A stretch of 43,315 bases of DNA from Candidatus Desantisbacteria bacterium CG1_02_49_89 (GTDB taxonomy: Bacteria; Desantisbacteria; UBA1551), in contig MNUP01000128.1 in the NCBI GenBank assembly GCA_001871075.1, positions 1-43,315 of the forward strand. Reading direction: 5' to 3'. This document shows, piece by piece, positions 2,951 through 29,874 of this stretch. The position numbers and the translations under genes were made by a program. Every line of letters starts with the position of its first letter. The first letter of the stretch is position 1. The notes below the pieces were generated by a model. That model was not told the DNA's origin. It searched no databases and worked only from the letters and a program-made list of their open reading frames with translations.

Positions 2951-2983
2951 ACTAATCGTGCACTAATCGTGCACTAATCGTGC
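2951..2983. repeat. 11-bp tandem repeat (ACTAATCGTGC x3)
   Basis: Three exact copies, overlapping the 3' end of the AlbA_2 gene that stops at 2974. Confidence 0.9.
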
Positions 2984-4365
2984 ACTCGATATCTCGTACT
3001 CCGCCCCATCCCAATCTGAACGATAACTTTCTTTTGTAAAAGATCGTTTAAGTCTTTATTTGCCTGTCTTAATGAAACTCCGGATATTTCGGCGTATTTT
3101 TTCCGCGAGATTTCACCTTTCGCTTTAAGGTATTCTATCGCCTTCTTTTGGCGATCATTCAGATCCAACTTATGAAGTTTTTGATCTTCGATTGCCTTGG
3201 CAAACGCCTTTCCGGGCCCCCTCAACGTAACGTTGAACCCTCCAGACAATTCTTCGAATATTGGATCGGCCAGTTTCTCCGCCCGCATGGCCTCGACTAC
3301 GCGATTCGTTCCCTTCCCCCAATGCTCGATGTATTTAATGTAGAACAGGCGTTCGGCGAGGAATCTGTTACGCGGTATCGAGAGATGCTTGCGCTTAAGC
3401 ATTGCAGGGGTAAGCGGTTTGGGCAACTCTCCCGGATTCCAAACTTCGATACGGCCGTCGTAAATCGACAAATGAGTGTCCGCATTCGACCAATAGTCCC
3501 TGTGTGCAAGTGCGTTGTTCAGAATCTCTTCCAGCGCTCTGAATGGGTATTCCCATTTATCGAACCGTTGATTGGCATCGAAGAAAACCGCGTGCTTGGT
3601 ATGTTCCGCGATGAAAGCCAGGGCTTTTTCGCGGAGATCAGGGATAGTTCCTTCCAGCACTTTCATGTCGAGATAATCGTTCCCTTCGCTACCCTTGAAC
3701 CTGGCGACACGAATCTTCGCTTGCACGAAGAATTTCTGCGGCTGTTTTCCAAAAAGTAAAATAGCCGTATTGTTCGGCTTACTGCCTTTAAGCAAGTTTA
3801 ATCGCGCAAGCGCATCTTTCACGCTCGTTTTTGCCGGTACGATCAAGCGTTTTTCATCCTTGGCTTTATCCAGAAACCATGATACCTTGGCCGCGTCGAT
3901 GTCTTTTAGCGAAGCGCCCTTGCATACCGCCTCATCAAATTGAAGTTTATCTTTATGTTTTTCGAAGATTAACCGCTCGTATTCGTCTTTGGTCATCTTG
4001 ACCGTCGAACGCCCCGCGCGCTTATATGGCCGCCCGAACGCAAGCACCAGGCGATCGTGCGATTCTTTGACCTCTATGACAACCACTTCCTTGCCGTGAA
4101 TATTCTTAACGGTTACCTTTGGGTAAAGTTTCGGATCCGTGTGCTGGGCGATTTGGTTGACCAATTTCTCGATCGTGCCCTTGCCGATTTGAACTCCGAC
4201 AACCTTGCCTTCCGGAGAGACACCGATAAATATCCGGCCGCCTTCTGTATTCGCGAAAGCGACCGCCGTCTCTACGATTGCGTCCATCTCGGATAAAGAC
4301 TGCTTCCGCTCAACCGTCGTTGATTCAGCAGAACCAATCATCTTTGATAAATTCTTCGTCTTCAT
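2974..4365 (-). CDS. AlbA_2/RecG-like putative DNA-binding protein with HATPase_c_4-like C-terminal region and winged-helix tail
   Basis: 463 aa; ESTTVERKQSLSEMDAIVETAVAFANTEGGRIFIGV, LNNALAHRDYWSNADTHLSIYDGRIEVWNPGELP and HWGKGTNRVVEAM are characteristic of the family. Confidence 0.88.
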   Translation of the reverse strand: MKTKNLSKMIGSAESTTVERKQSLSEMDAIVETAVAFANTEGGRIFIGVSPEGKVVGVQIGKGTIEKLVNQIAQHTDPKLYPKVTVKNIHGKEVVVIEVKESHDRLVLAFGRPYKRAGRSTVKMTKDEYERLIFEKHKDKLQFDEAVCKGASLKDIDAAKVSWFLDKAKDEKRLIVPAKTSVKDALARLNLLKGSKPNNTAILLFGKQPQKFFVQAKIRVARFKGSEGNDYLDMKVLEGTIPDLREKALAFIAEHTKHAVFFDANQRFDKWEYPFRALEEILNNALAHRDYWSNADTHLSIYDGRIEVWNPGELPKPLTPAMLKRKHLSIPRNRFLAERLFYIKYIEHWGKGTNRVVEAMRAEKLADPIFEELSGGFNVTLRGPGKAFAKAIEDQKLHKLDLNDRQKKAIEYLKAKGEISRKKYAEISGVSLRQANKDLNDLLQKKVIVQIGMGRSTRYRVHD

Positions 4366-4891
4366 ATTCTTCTCAAATAGAATCCTTGATCGCCCGGCGC
4401 TCTTCTTTTAACTCTTTTTGAATTCCGCCCTTAATTTAAAGACCTTTCCGCCACTGTATTTAACCTCGGTAATTTCATGTCCTCCAGTTATCCAAAATAA
4501 ACCAGCCTGTCCCCTTTTACATTCGGTATTGACCTAATTCCGGGGACATAATACTTAATTCTTTAAATACCGTCGAGCGTCGAACGTCCCGCCCAACAAG
4601 ATTTCCTCCCTAAAGATTTCCACCTTTAAGATTTGCGCCCTAAATATTGGCGCATCCGCCAATTCTTAAGGCGGAGACGGACAAGGGCGGACAAGGGCGG
4701 ACAAGCTGTGCATCGCAAAATGCAGTCATGGTTTAAAAACTTGTCAACGTATCAGCGTGTCAACGCAACTGCAAGGTTTTTTTATTTGAAACAGTGTTAA
4801 CTCTGAGATACAGTCATTTGTTAAAAACTACTACTGGTTCCGTGGTTCTGGGTTTAAAAGTTAAACAGATTGAATAAATAGAAACAACGAA

Positions 4892-5893
4892 CTATTTTTT
4901 TAGTAGGTTTAAAACCACTTTTATCATTATATCCTTTTCCGTAAGTTTACTAGCGGCAATCATCAACGTCAAGGTAATCAACGTGTTTTCGTCTATGCGC
5001 TTACTGCCATCGAGGCACAATAAAATGTCATTCCGCTGTAAGAAATATACAAATAAAGTCGCGGCGATACGTTTATTACCATCCACAAAGCTGTGGTTCT
5101 TTGTTACAAAATATAAAAGGTGCGCGGCTTTCTCTTCGATTGTCGAATAGACATCTTTCTTGCCGAAAGTTTGGTAAATAGCCCCTATGGAGCTTTTAAA
5201 ACCGCTGTCTTTTTCCTGCCCGACAAGCGGGGAATCTTTAAACCTTACCTTTATCTCGCTTATAATGTTTTTAGCCTCTTCATACGTCAATTCATATTTT
5301 ACTTTTTGAGTTCCTGCCGGCGTCGCAAGCCTCTGATGGTCGAAATCATCTAAAATATTCAGCGCTCGTGAGTATTCTTCAATAATTCGAATAATTCCTT
5401 TAGACTCATCCGGCACATCCTCCAACGATGCAATGTTGCCCAATAAGCGCACCGCTTCCCGCAAATTGCAAATTTTTTCTGATTGCACCCGGAGCTTTTT
5501 TTCATTGAGCGTGTAACCATCCAATAGATACCGGCGCAGAACATTTGTGGCCCAAATACGAAATTGTGTTCCTTGTTTAGAATTCACGCGATAACCGACA
5601 GAAATAATCGCATCCAGACTGAAATATTCTACTTGATAGATTTTTCCGTCCGTACCAGTTGTTGCAAATTTTGCAACAACTGAATTTCTTTTTAACTCAC
5701 TTTCTTTAAATATATTATGTAAATGCCTCGATATAACGGATTTATCCCGTTCAAACAGGTCTGACATCTGGTTAAGACTTAACCAAACGGTATCCTTGAC
5801 CAGCCGCACCTCCAATCTGTTTTTGTATAAAACAACTTGTCCTCGGGAATCTTCTATCTTCATTAGCTTTTTAGGCGCCATTTTACCCCGCAA
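4892..5893 (-). CDS. RhuM-family protein with C-terminal Fic/Doc-like domain
   Basis: N-terminal RhuM block (VWLSLNQMSDLFERDKSVISRHLHNIF ... YFSLDAIISVGYRVNSKQGTQFRIWATNVLRRYLLDGYTLNEKKL) plus the Fic motif HSFVDGNKRIAATLFVYFL. Confidence 0.9.
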   Translation of the reverse strand: MRGKMAPKKLMKIEDSRGQVVLYKNRLEVRLVKDTVWLSLNQMSDLFERDKSVISRHLHNIFKESELKRNSVVAKFATTGTDGKIYQVEYFSLDAIISVGYRVNSKQGTQFRIWATNVLRRYLLDGYTLNEKKLRVQSEKICNLREAVRLLGNIASLEDVPDESKGIIRIIEEYSRALNILDDFDHQRLATPAGTQKVKYELTYEEAKNIISEIKVRFKDSPLVGQEKDSGFKSSIGAIYQTFGKKDVYSTIEEKAAHLLYFVTKNHSFVDGNKRIAATLFVYFLQRNDILLCLDGSKRIDENTLITLTLMIAASKLTEKDIMIKVVLNLLKK

Positions 5894-5917
5894 GCTGATA
5901 ATTTTTTATTAAATAAT

Positions 5918-5933
5918 GGGGACGGGTTCATTT
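5918..5933 (+). repeat. Solo RAYT-element end sequence
   Basis: GGGGACGGGTTCATTT is identical to part of the 26-bp inverted repeats flanking the RAYT at 21651-22411. Confidence 0.7.
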
Positions 5934-6432
5934 GTTTATTAAAGATGATTACGGTGATTATTAAATACTGATTACAGTGATTATCAGAAGAAGATTACGG
6001 TGATTATTAAAAGATGATCTTTGCTACGCCGATCAGGTCCAGCGAGACAACATTCTTTGTGGGCCATGTCGATAAACGACGAATTCCGGTGATTACAAAA
6101 TGTCCCGATAAATCGGGACCGCTACACAACAGATTGCCGCGCCCTGCGGGCTCGCAATGACCCACCTACGCCATCCTACTTCGCTAAAGCTTCGAAGGAC
6201 AAGTTTGAGGGTTCTCCTGCAAGTACGACCAGCTCCCGCCTACGTGAATACTCAGCAAACTTATAATTTTCCTATCCTACTACGCCAAGGCTTCCGCCTG
6301 CGTTAAACCAAATGAGTCCAAGATTTTCCTATTCGGAAAGGACTCATTTGAACTCCGGCGGACAAGTCGCTCAGGTACAGGGCAGGCACCTAAACCAATT
6401 CGTCGGAATTACAGACACACTGCCTTTTCCTG

Positions 6433-6753
6433 TTATTTATCTCTTTCTTGCTTTTTCAGATACTCAATGCCTTTTTTAGTCAAACGATATTTTTGCAGAC
6501 GACTGTTTGGTTTGTCTGGGATCGTGTATTCGATCAGATCCTGCTTTAACGCCGATTTCAAGTATCGCTCTTTAAAATTTGCCCGTCCTTTTAAGCTAAT
6601 TTTTTTCTGCAATTCCTGCCGCGTCATTTTACCATGGATAATCTTCAATAAACGTATTATCTCTTCATTGACTTGGCCCGCGACTTGACCCGCGACTTGG
6701 CCTGTGGTTTGAATAGGAGCCTTTTTCGCCGAGGGTTGTTTTCGCCATATCAT
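6433..6753 (-). pseudogene. C-terminal fragment of an AlbA_2/RecG-like protein
   Basis: TGQVAGQVAGQVNEEIIRLLKIIHGKMTRQELQKKISLKGRANFKERYLKSALKQDLIEYTIPDKPNSRLQKYRLTKKG is the winged-helix tail typical of AlbA_2 proteins, but no catalytic or AlbA portion is present. Confidence 0.6.
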
Positions 6754-6824
6754 CAGAATAAAAAATCCGTTTTCTAACCGAAACTCCGGCGGACACAGCG
6801 GGTTCAGGGCAAGCTTACGAGAAC

Positions 6825-8201
6825 TTATTTTTCGATCACTTCCCAGTGACCGCCTTTATCCGGGCCGATACGGCGAAGCAGACCTTTTTCTTTTAATTTC
6901 TTTAAGTTCCACTCAACGCCCCTGCGAGTTAATTTTGCCTTTTGCATAATTTCATTTTGAATTATTCCGGGATCTGCTTTAATTAAAGCAAGGATTTTCT
7001 CCACAGTTTTCTTTAAGAGACCTTCTTCACCTTTTCCTTTCCTCTTGAAGGTCACGATGAAATGAGTTCCTATTTCCCTGAAGTCCGCATCGGGTTCCCG
7101 CGAAAGTATGAGATTTATGCCCCTCCCCCACTTTTCGATGAAATGCACTCTGTGGAACAGCTCAGCGATAAGTTCGTTTCGGCGTGTGGATGTATTGTCC
7201 CTGTAGCCCCTTCGGGGCTTAACACAGGGATCTGCGAGCCAGAACGGGGCTGATGGCTCTTCGGAAACCATTTTTGTTTTTATGTCGGTTATAGTCAAAC
7301 CGCCGTAAAGAAGCCCCGGGTTTCTGATCTCAAGACGGTTCTTAAAGATCGCAATATTCACGGAGTCATATTCCCTGTAATCCCTGTGACAGAAGGCGTT
7401 GATTACTGCTTCCCTGAACGCTTCCCTGTCTATTTCAGGAACATCTATTCTGCGTAAACCATCGAGCTTCATTCCGATATGAATATTTTTCAGTATGTAT
7501 TCCTGCGCCTTTTCGATAAGAAAGAACGGGTCACCCTCATAATCCTGCATATCCACGGGAATCGCCGTGTCATTAGTCGCGAAAACCGCGCACCTGAGCT
7601 TTGCGTTAGGGAAGAACTGCCGCGGATCCCTGGCAAAAAGCATTACGGCCGCGTTGCGGATCTTGCCATCAGAACAAAGCCCCAGTTTTTGCAGGGAACT
7701 TTTAATATCGTCATACTTCAAACCTGCTATCTTTAAAAATGACCTTAACTTTTTCGAGCTGATATGAGAATATTTTGCCTTTTCGCAAACCAGCGTATCC
7801 CAGTTCAGCTTGTCCTTATTTTTCGCCAGAAACATCTTTTCTAATTCTCTTGCGCTTAGCTGCTTGTTTTCATCGCTAACCCTCATATATGCTTTGCCAA
7901 AAGCCAGGTAAGGTATTTCTGTCCCTTCAAATTCTATGACCGCACATCTCTTTCCGTTTATTTTTTCAGCCGCGATTTTAGGATAAATCCTGGGCTCTAC
8001 GTTGCTCGAAACCGCCTGAGAAATATCCCTGATCGTTTTTCCGCCGATTTCCTGGCCGACCACGGTGCCGTCATTCTTTATGCCGAAATATACCTTTCCT
8101 TTGGCGTGTTTATTGAGAATGGCTGAAATCGCGATGACCGCTTCTTTCAGCTCGGAAGTTGATTTCTTGAATTCCACGTTTTCGGATTCCTTTAATTGCA
8201 T
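6825..8201 (-). CDS. AlbA_2/RecG-like protein (second paralog) carrying an in-frame family A repeat insertion
   Basis: MQLKESENVEFKKSTSELKEAVIAISAILNKHAKGKVYFGIKNDGTVVGQ ... INAFCHRDYREYDSVNIAIFKNRLEIRNPGLL ... FIEKWGRGINLI. The track start at 8477 is rejected because its extra N-terminus is translated repeat DNA. Confidence 0.85.
   Translation of the reverse strand: MQLKESENVEFKKSTSELKEAVIAISAILNKHAKGKVYFGIKNDGTVVGQEIGGKTIRDISQAVSSNVEPRIYPKIAAEKINGKRCAVIEFEGTEIPYLAFGKAYMRVSDENKQLSARELEKMFLAKNKDKLNWDTLVCEKAKYSHISSKKLRSFLKIAGLKYDDIKSSLQKLGLCSDGKIRNAAVMLFARDPRQFFPNAKLRCAVFATNDTAIPVDMQDYEGDPFFLIEKAQEYILKNIHIGMKLDGLRRIDVPEIDREAFREAVINAFCHRDYREYDSVNIAIFKNRLEIRNPGLLYGGLTITDIKTKMVSEEPSAPFWLADPCVKPRRGYRDNTSTRRNELIAELFHRVHFIEKWGRGINLILSREPDADFREIGTHFIVTFKRKGKGEEGLLKKTVEKILALIKADPGIIQNEIMQKAKLTRRGVEWNLKKLKEKGLLRRIGPDKGGHWEVIEK
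7195..7268 (-). repeat. Family A repeat, copy 3, inside a coding sequence
   Basis: The reverse complement GTTTCCGAAGAGCCATCAGCCCCGTTCTGGCTCGCAGATCCCTGTGTTAAGCCCCGAAGGGGCTACAGGGACAA aligns along its length with 12511-12592. Confidence 0.85.
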
Positions 8202-8265
8202 ACCCGGTCCTTTTATAACCATTTTGTTGACATCAACGAAATGGTCCGCGATGCTCTGCCAAATT

Positions 8266-8342
8266 TTACGGGGCTCCCTCCTTAAAGATCGGCAGCTTGC
8301 CCGCCAACGCTTGCTGGGCGGGGGTCTTCGAAAAGGCTTGCC
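8266..8342 (+). repeat. 77-bp exact repeat (chimeric family C hairpin with nested family D), copy 1
   Basis: TTACGGGGCTCCCTCCTTAAAGATCGGCAGCTTGCCCGCCAACGCTTGCTGGGCGGGGGTCTTCGAAAAGGCTTGCC is identical to 12354-12430. Confidence 0.92.
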
Positions 8343-8461
8343 ATATCCACCCCGATGGACATCGGGGCGAGACCTCGCCCTAAAGGGGCGGGCGAAAACA
8401 AATATTACGGGGCTGAAGCCCCTACTCCGTGAAAACCAGAGGCAACTTTCTTGTTCCACCC

Positions 8462-12006: not shown

Positions 12007-12053
12007 GCCCTCTGCTGCTCCGAATAACCCGGAGCAAAACGCGAGGACCTTCG
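12007..12053 (-). repeat. Partial family A repeat
   Basis: The reverse complement CGAAGGTCCTCGCGTTTTGCTCCGGGTTATTCGGAGCAGCAGAGGGC matches the 3' half of family A. Confidence 0.5.
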
Positions 12054-12353
12054 CCCGCCAATAATCGTGGCGGGCTACGGCACGGAAGGATGGAAGCACG
12101 GAATAATATTTGGCTTTTGCAAATGACAAATGACTGCCTTTGCAACCACACGATTACACACGATTTCCACAAGATTTTCTTCTACTTGACACTTGATACT
12201 TGACTCTTGACACTAAATTAACCACAGGTGAACACTGTTTTGTAGCTCAAACCTTCAGGTTTGATATCAGGGCTCCCACCTTAAAAATTGGCGGGTCTTC
12301 GAAAAGCCCTGAGTTACTCGCAAGCCTTAAGGCTTGCCCTACGAAAACAAATA

Positions 12354-12430
12354 TTACGGGGCTCCCTCCTTAAAGATCGGCAGCTTGCCCGCCAACGCTT
12401 GCTGGGCGGGGGTCTTCGAAAAGGCTTGCC
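12354..12430 (+). repeat. 77-bp exact repeat, copy 2
   Basis: Identical to 8266-8342. Confidence 0.92.
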
Positions 12431-12510
12431 CTACGAAATCTACACCTAAGAGACCATAAATAGCAGAGCAAGCTCTGCCACTACTTCGAAACCCCGGAAC
12501 CCGTATTAAA

Positions 12511-12592
12511 CGATTTCCGGAGAGTCATTCACCCTGTTCTGACTCGTAGGTCCCTGTGTTAAGCTCCAGTTTCATCGGAGCTACAGGGATAA
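12511..12592 (+). repeat. Family A repeat, copy 4
   Basis: CGATTTCCGGAGAGTCATTCACCCTGTTCTGACTCGTAGGTCCCTGTGTTAAGCTCCAGTTTCATCGGAGCTACAGGGATAA. Confidence 0.85.
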
Positions 12593-21621: not shown

Positions 21622-21650
21622 TAAAAACTCCTTATTTTAAATTGCAAATG

Positions 21651-22411
21651 AAAAAAGGGGACGGGTTCATTTATTTTCCTCTTTGAACGGCCTGCCTCTT
21701 CTTCTTATCTGCATTTTTCTGCCTAAAATATTTTCTATCTTTTCTTTGAATACATCATTCCCAAAGGCTACTCCCTTATTTACTGACTCTGTAATAAGTT
21801 TCCATTCAAAATCAGGTATGCTTTCTTTAAACCATTTCTCATATTTTTTTTGCCTTTCATCTTCATTGCTACCCAAAGATAAAAACCAGGAATCAAAATC
21901 AAGAAGCGGATCTGCTTTAAAACCGATCTTGCCATTATAGCTACTCCATTTATAATCTCCGGGCAACCGCGTGATCCCCGCTCTTGCCGGATTCATTTCT
22001 ATGTATCTGGAACAAGCAAGCAGATAATTATCCATGGAAACCGGGGAGCTCCTGAATCTCCCCTCCCAAAGCGTACCGGTACGTTTATATTTTTTATTCA
22101 CATACTGAGCATATTTCTGAGCAATGGATTTAATAAATTTAGCAAGATGCTCTTTGACTAGCGGTTCAAGTAAAAAATGAACGTGGTTATTCATCAGAAC
22201 ATATGAATATAAATTCATTTCATATTCTGTTTTCGCGATTTTTATCAACCTTAAGAAATATTGAAAATCGTCATCGCAAAAAAATATGACTTGTTTATTA
22301 TTGCCTCTATGAATAATATGATATGTTACATTCGCAAGAGCACGCCTGGCATATCTTGGCATTATCTTTTTGCCTCTTTATAGTTAAATAAATGAACCCG
22401 TCCCCTTTTTT
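21651..22411 (-). mobile_element. RAYT element with perfect 26-bp inverted termini
   Basis: Left AAAAAAGGGGACGGGTTCATTTATTT (21651-21676), right AAATAAATGAACCCGTCCCCTTTTTT (22386-22411), exact reverse complements. Confidence 0.85.
21667..22362 (-). CDS. REP-associated tyrosine transposase (Y1_Tnp/RAYT)
   Basis: MPRYARRALANVTYHIIHRGNNKQVIFF...YVLMNNHVHFLLEP...GRFRSSPVSMDNYLLACSRYIEMNPARAGI...YKWSSY; HUH-type HVH motif. Confidence 0.93.
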   Translation of the reverse strand: MPRYARRALANVTYHIIHRGNNKQVIFFCDDDFQYFLRLIKIAKTEYEMNLYSYVLMNNHVHFLLEPLVKEHLAKFIKSIAQKYAQYVNKKYKRTGTLWEGRFRSSPVSMDNYLLACSRYIEMNPARAGITRLPGDYKWSSYNGKIGFKADPLLDFDSWFLSLGSNEDERQKKYEKWFKESIPDFEWKLITESVNKGVAFGNDVFKEKIENILGRKMQIRRRGRPFKEENK

Positions 22412-23297
22412 ATTTCGCCTGTTTCTGGGTCAGGTACGCGGCAAGGACGCGGTCGTACGGGACGGAGGTGTTAATTGGAACGTAATCTATCTGGCTCTCG
22501 GAACAGACTTTTTTATAGTGTTCGACAAAATCTTTCACGCGCCTGCAGTATTCGTCGCGCAGCGCCCGGGGATAGAGGAACATTTTGTCCCCGGATTCCA
22601 GGTCCTGAAGGGTCAGGGACTCGGAAAAGGAAAAATCCAGCTCCATTTTGTCCAGCACGTGGAAAATAATGCACTCGTGCTTGTTGTGCCTGAAGTGTTT
22701 CAGGGCTGACAGCACTTCGTCCTCATTGTCAAGCAGGTCTGAAATAAGTATTATAAGGGCGCGCCTTTTTATTATGTTCGCCAGGTCGTGGCAGGGTTTC
22801 GCGATGGAGCTTTTACCGGAAGACCGCAGGTCCTGCAAAGAGTTCAGTATGACCTGCAGATGGCCCGGGGTGCTGCGCGGAGGAATGATCCTGTCCAGGG
22901 AAGAGGAGAAAGGGGCAAGACCGACGGCATCCTGCTGTTTTATAAGAACGTAGGAAAGAAGCGCGGAAAGGTAACAGCCGTATTCAAGCTTGGTCTGCCC
23001 GTTTGAGGTGTAGCCCATGGACGAGCTGCGGTCCAGCAAGATATAGGCCTTAAGGTTTGTTTCTTCCTCATACTGCTTGATGTAGTAGCGGTCTGACCGG
23101 GCAAAGACCTTCCAGTCAATGCGGCGTATCTCATCACCCCAGGTGTAGGCACGGTGCTCGCTGAACTCAACGCTGGAGCCCTTGTAAGGGCTGCGGTGCA
23201 GGCCCGTGACAGTGCCTTCCACCGCCCCGCGGGGCAGGAAGGAAAGGTTTGTGAACTTGCTGATGATATTTGGGTCAAGATAACGGGAAGCGGGCAA
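22410..23297 (-). CDS. DUF58 domain-containing protein
   Basis: 295 aa; GLHRSPYKGSSVEFSEHRAYTWGDEIRRIDWKVFARSDRYYIKQYEEETNLKAYILLDRSSSMGY is the DUF58 signature. Confidence 0.93.
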   Translation of the reverse strand: MPASRYLDPNIISKFTNLSFLPRGAVEGTVTGLHRSPYKGSSVEFSEHRAYTWGDEIRRIDWKVFARSDRYYIKQYEEETNLKAYILLDRSSSMGYTSNGQTKLEYGCYLSALLSYVLIKQQDAVGLAPFSSSLDRIIPPRSTPGHLQVILNSLQDLRSSGKSSIAKPCHDLANIIKRRALIILISDLLDNEDEVLSALKHFRHNKHECIIFHVLDKMELDFSFSESLTLQDLESGDKMFLYPRALRDEYCRRVKDFVEHYKKVCSESQIDYVPINTSVPYDRVLAAYLTQKQAK

Positions 23298-29801: not shown

Positions 29802-29874
29802 TAGCCCCTGCGGGTTTCTGCGAAACCATAACGCTGGGGCCTACGAACCAGAACTGGGTCGATGGCTCTCCGGC
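29802..29874 (-). repeat. Family A repeat, copy 5
   Basis: The reverse complement CCGGAGAGCCATCGACCCAGTTCTGGTTCGTAGGCCCCAGCGTTATGGTTTCGCAGAAACCCGCAGGGGC aligns with copy 4. Confidence 0.7.

Follow-up and report, generated by a model that had tools for sequence, protein, structure and literature searches.

A REP-like palindromic repeat in frame within an AlbA_2/HATPase_c_4 gene of a Candidatus Desantisbacteria genome

Described palindromic repeats and the family A unit

GTAG REPs are stem-loop repeats of 20-40 bp with an unpaired GTAG tag at one end that lie mostly between genes and occur in compound or clustered forms, and REP-like repeats joined to unrelated stem-loops have also been reported (PMC3733652). 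GT pairs are frequent in REP stems (Di Nocera et al. 2013, PMC3733652). An earlier note on the DNA treated here held that in-frame palindromes are known mainly from Rickettsia. This does not hold: a 2013 catalogue from several species lists GTAG- and CGTC-tagged REPs inside genes, a few of which keep the frame and specify 20-30 aa (Di Nocera et al. 2013, PMC3733652). The Rickettsia palindromic elements (RPEs) themselves are described in PMC10969869, with reference to Ogata et al. (2000, 2002), as ~150 bp long, with a conserved peptide and with nearly half of the copies in genes, and one of their ends bears a CGTC tag (Di Nocera 2013, PMC3733652).

The repeat considered here, family A, occurs in the genome of Candidatus Desantisbacteria bacterium CG1_02_49_89 (2.48 Mb, 150 contigs), and one of its copies lies in a gene of a 43,315-nt contig, MNUP01000128.1, hereafter the window. 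We file family A with the REP-like palindromic repeats as a new variant and not as a Rickettsia-type coding palindrome. Like GTAG REPs it is short, palindromic and mostly intergenic, with a GTAG-like tag and a rare in-frame copy (1/104). What sets it apart from described REPs is a degenerate tag (GNAG, with the second base free, facing a second tag), a unit of 66-77 bp with three hairpins, two adjacent and one nested, the exchange of modules, and the lack of a linked RAYT, since no RAYT gene is flanked by family A; moreover, its stems are almost without G-T pairs. With RPEs it shares a palindrome that sits in frame in a protein gene whose homologs have an empty site, and to this extent the analogy drawn in the earlier note is sound. 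The analogy does not extend to a family that lives in genes, as only one of 104 copies is intragenic and open frames are not enriched, and the element ends (CCGNAG and GGGA/GGGG) differ from the CGTC tag of RPEs. The note knew of no description of the family, and none was found in Rfam or in the literature searched. The in-frame event is of a known kind, and of the two it is the modular build of the hairpins that is the newer feature.

Mitochondrial double-hairpin elements consist of two adjacent hairpins that form a mobile unit, spread between genes and nest. Family A is similar in that its adjacent hairpins move as a unit and nest, but this is a resemblance only: family A is bacterial, has different sequences and GNAG tags, and carries an apical third hairpin. 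Unlike a classical MITE, it has no terminal inverted repeats, its two ends not being inverted repeats of each other, and no target-site duplication was seen.

Hairpin 1 of the unit has the consensus CC-GNA-GAGYCA...TGRCTC-GNA-GG, with a symmetrical GNA/GNA internal loop, and is directly followed by hairpin 2, TCCCTGT-GTTA-AGCYCC...GGRGCT-ACAGGGA, in which the apical hairpin has a GTAG/GCAG tag of its own, on the other strand in most copies. The first tag is GTAG in 49 and GNAG in 93 of 100 full copies, and the second is GNAG in 91. In 81 copies examined for covariation, 98.0% of the cells at stem positions are paired, against 82.1% in shuffles, and both sides of a pair have changed in 269 cells, against 65 in shuffles. 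Among 1580 cells outside the terminal pair, G-T mismatches number 15 and A-C mismatches 12. If selection acted on an RNA, G-U pairs in its strand would be accepted much more readily than A-C. The near equality of the two counts, with no RNA-like excess of wobble pairs, therefore suggests that pairing is kept at the DNA level, and on our own reading of the counts, rather than on a standard test, the structure of family A seems to be maintained as DNA.

An in-frame insertion in an AlbA_2/HATPase_c_4 gene

The gene at 6825-8201 (-) is an open frame of 458 aa with the Pfam domains SLFN_AlbA_2, HATPase_c_4 (RecG C-terminal-like) and HTH_24, a winged HTH, and a ribosome-binding-like AAAGGA lies upstream of its ATG. 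About 35 close relatives of the protein are 45-65% identical over the entire length, and they come from Nitrospirota, Brocadiaceae and other Planctomycetota, Deltaproteobacteria and several groups of archaea; the gene is widespread, with a patchy distribution. In the window the gene belongs to a cluster at 2974-8201 that comprises two AlbA_2/HATPase_c_4 genes, a RhuM-Fic gene and a Fic-like C-terminal protein.

Compared with its homologs, the window protein has exactly 25 residues more and lacks no conserved host residue. The additional segment, 75 bp or 25 codons at 7185-7259 (-), encodes EPSAPFWLADPCVKPRRGYRDNTST and is missing from the homologs in a 24-homolog alignment, while the empty site MVSE|RRNEL is unbroken in nearly all of the ~35 close relatives and in the in-window paralog at 2974-4365. 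Judged by these comparisons, the segment is a clean insertion into the gene. The earlier note had recognised a repeat at 7195-7268, its position in frame within an open AlbA_2 gene and the continuity of the paralog over the insertion point, all of which the alignments and the covariance model bear out; the net insertion comes to 25 aa rather than about 27. Here, outside Rickettsia, nature provides a clean example of a mobile DNA palindrome that has turned into part of a protein, and dozens of homologs still show the empty site.

The complete element, 67 nt (CCGAAGAG...ACAGGGA), occupies 7198-7264 (-) and reaches 83.2 bits with the covariance model of the family (genome-wide E 6.9e-15), while the BLAST match spans 7195-7267. 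Alignment and covariation place hairpin 1 (GAGCCA...TGGCTC, with the 5' tag CCGAAG) at 7234-7259 (-) and hairpin 2 (TCCCTGT...ACAGGGA, with the nested apical hairpin AGCCCC-GAA-GGGGCT) at 7198-7230 (-). The element shares its first 5 nt, CCGAA, with the host codons TCC GAA; since homologs read GTT TCN GAR at this place, CCGAA probably derives from the host gene and predates the insertion. The net 75 bp would then comprise 62 bp of the element and a 13-bp tail, CAATACATCCACA, at 7185-7197 (-), outside the repeat unit. In eight full copies elsewhere in the assembly or here the 3' flank begins with CAA, and several of these continue into a second, partial element, which suggests that the tail is probably the remnant of a second, truncated family A element; tail-like 3' flanks are found at C135:22593, C13:2875, C72:3945, C14:4777 and C100:1570. 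An 8-bp target duplication would also give the observed length (67+8=75), but the flanks agree poorly (~6/12), and the truncated second element fits the tail better. The nearest empty-site homolog is only ~65% identical, and the pre-insertion DNA at both ends (the 5' CCGAA overlap and the 3' tail) is what we infer from such comparisons.

Could the repeat have been joined wrongly into the gene during assembly? The genome is rich in repeats and split into 150 contigs, and N gaps stand beside a family A copy elsewhere in the assembly. Yet both flanks belong to one protein in one frame with zero host residues lost, an outcome that a false join rarely produces, and we regard an artefact as exceedingly improbable. 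The same low probability applies to a removal of the segment from the final product by RNA splicing, ribosome bypass or DNA removal. As RNA, the segment folds strongly (z -2.95), and homologs without the 25 residues indicate that it is dispensable; however, the segment is already a multiple of three and stop-free so that removal is not needed, Rfam has no match to it, and the near-equal G-T and A-C counts disfavour a functional RNA fold.

A search of the PDB returned only 3lmm, a weak partial match that stops right at the insertion site. In an AlphaFold2 model, which is based on 25 sequences and is only fair (mean pLDDT 68), the insert lies in a long coil, itself at pLDDT 25-42, that links helices 304-309 and 343-353 and directly precedes the conserved RRNEL...EKWGRG. 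This agrees with the surface loop that the earlier note asked about but is no proof of it, as the entire loop, native residues included, is of low confidence. The insert may be a tolerated loop in a protein that is probably made and working. An alternative is a dead or dying gene, whose product would be inactivated by the insertion and whose open frame would simply not have been lost yet. Damage to function is conceivable because the insert adjoins conserved HATPase_c_4 residues (the RRNEL...EKWGRG motif), and a loss might be made good by the other AlbA_2 gene of the window. Against this, the whole frame, the start region and the C-terminal winged helix are intact and agree with the homologs, and such a decay of the gene appears unlikely, though not negligibly so, compared with the tolerated insertion favoured here.

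Family A copies within and beyond the genome

With the gene copy as query, BLAST returned 44 matches in the genome, and a covariance model built on 25 copies found 104 copies at E<1e-3. In the window, intergenic copies lie at 1570-1636 (+, 77.6 bits), 2477-2553 (+, 68.2 bits) and 12517-12589 (+, 91.3 bits), and a fourth at 29805-29873 (-, 64.3 bits) is placed inside a TTCGTG-type repeat by comparison of its flanks with empty repeats. The copies that had been noted at 1565, 2472, 12511 and 29802 are therefore real, and together with the gene copy they are joined by a sixth at 12008-12080 (-, 34.4 bits), a diverged one in which a module scan identified hairpin 1 as the CCCGCCACGATTATTGGCGGG module.

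Beyond this genome, the covariance model gave no match at E<=0.001 in ~385 other genomes. With E relaxed to <=0.01 in a smaller set, an order-level relative gave two weak matches (30.5 and 27.7 bits), whereas 57 further genomes gave none. An exact-pattern search of viral contigs and a similarity search of phage records found no family A, and Rfam showed no above-threshold match in the window, with one meaningless sub-threshold match at a copy. As the gene is present in many phyla and the repeat has no strong match in the other genomes searched, the gene is widespread and the repeat local, and it is simplest to assume that the insertion came after the arrival of the gene in this lineage.

Only one of the 104 copies, that in gene 6825-8201, hits a credible coding region. 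Other copies within open frames fall in frames without Pfam domains and were not counted as genes hit, nor was a copy on contig C104 that precedes a likely signal-peptide start. With ~79% of the sequence in open frame, this indicates that genes are strongly avoided or purged. Nor is family A enriched for open frames. The length is divisible by three in 31 of 100 full copies (31%), and stop-free strand-frames make up 36% in family A copies vs ~52% in a shuffled copy, so that a copy landing at random in a gene would leave the frame intact in ~1/3 x 0.36 = 12% of cases, about one in eight. At this rate one survivor among about 100 copies needs no special explanation, and the in-frame outcome would reflect chance and no property of family A. 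A coding palindrome of the Rickettsia type, adapted to or tolerated by genes and regularly adding protein segments, would be in line with the one clean in-frame copy that is translated without stops; given the single intragenic copy despite the large open-frame fraction, the deficit of stop-free frames relative to shuffled sequence and the few lengths that are multiples of three, it is highly improbable, and the genome-wide count has largely refuted it.

We consider it very probable, instead, that family A is a lineage-specific, REP-like DNA hairpin repeat of which one copy and the remnant of a second gave rise, by chance, to a tolerated in-frame insert of 25 aa. Such a compound palindromic repeat would have been moved or copied as a DNA hairpin, inserting precisely and with no obvious target duplication, mainly between genes or within other repeats. 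A widely transferred AlbA_2/HATPase_c_4 gene would have received one copy and a short remnant of another in the loop region that precedes the RRNEL...EKWGRG motif. The frame may have been kept because the total of 75 bp was stop-free in that orientation and frame and because of the location in a loop.

Nesting, module exchange and mobility

Some family A copies sit precisely inside other repeats that the genome also contains in empty form, as in ATTCGTG|...|ATTCGTGGTTAAA and ATTGCGA|...|GAAGC...GCGACGAAGCAATC. They also nest in each other (C71:290, C71:5425, C119:19243 and C84:1346), and the joined flanks then form a canonical element over the junction at 85-90% identity. No target duplication is apparent at the gene or at the sites with a known empty repeat. 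The four bases before a copy are CGTG, TGTG or AGTG in 36 of 104 cases and CCGA in 11 of 104. At C143:9427, C65:7106, C30:12270, C82:11290, C149:1517, C84:740 and C72:1132, copies preceded by CCGA and mostly followed by TCGG stand at the centre of differing palindromes (CTCCGA^TCGGAG, CCCCGA^TCGGGG, GTCCCGA^TTGGGAC), which gives a three-way junction whose outer stem varies.

Modules are exchanged as well: a 21-bp palindrome, CCCGCCA...TGGCGGG, takes the place of hairpin 1 in 14 copies and that of the apical hairpin in 9. Copies with this palindrome were seen on contigs C47, C91, C48, C11, C50, C98, C130, C69, C106, C58, C3 and C100 and on C72, C83, C19, C14, C59, C125, C74, C71 and C135. With their compensatory changes, their nesting and their exchanged modules, these hundred or so related copies can help to explain how hairpin repeats of bacteria spread and how their stems are kept perfect.

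Tagged hairpins and insertion without duplication are features of IS200/IS605-type Y1 enzymes and RAYTs, whose elements (Y1 HUH) carry the tagged hairpins subterminally. Family A is like these elements in its tetranucleotide-tagged hairpins and in its insertion without target duplication, and perhaps an IS200/IS605-like enzyme (Y1, RAYT-type) acting in trans has moved it. Unlike in those elements, none of the ten Y1_Tnp matches in the genome is bordered by family A, with one weak 23-bit match nearby. The Y1 transposases are flanked by other palindromes (GGGGACGG, GTAACTCAAACC and CAACTTGTTGAGG). No transposase was found among the genes between close family A pairs, which from their sequences are named PIN-domain-like, HEPN/MNT-like, toxin-antitoxin-like and isomerase-like. 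A more far-reaching possibility, which we hold to be rather doubtful, is that family A is a modular, self-nesting DNA-hairpin system in which GNAG cassettes enter defined slots and swap between them, perfect pairing is enforced at the DNA level and spread depends on an enzyme or a replication-based process other than a linked RAYT; the copy in the gene would then be a by-product.

Intergenic stretches of 86 bp at 8260-8345 and 12348-12433 are 98% identical to each other. The window also holds a Y1_Tnp (RAYT/TIRYT-like) gene at 21994-22335 (-) between inverted repeats with GGGGACGGGTTC (arms at 21644-21676 and 22386-22418), a separate repeat-transposase unit. Elsewhere in the genome, two Y1_Tnp genes at C23:1824-2150 and C23:3850-4176 are flanked by arrays of GTAACTCAAACC-TTCA-GGTTTGA palindromes and are likely a REPtron pair.
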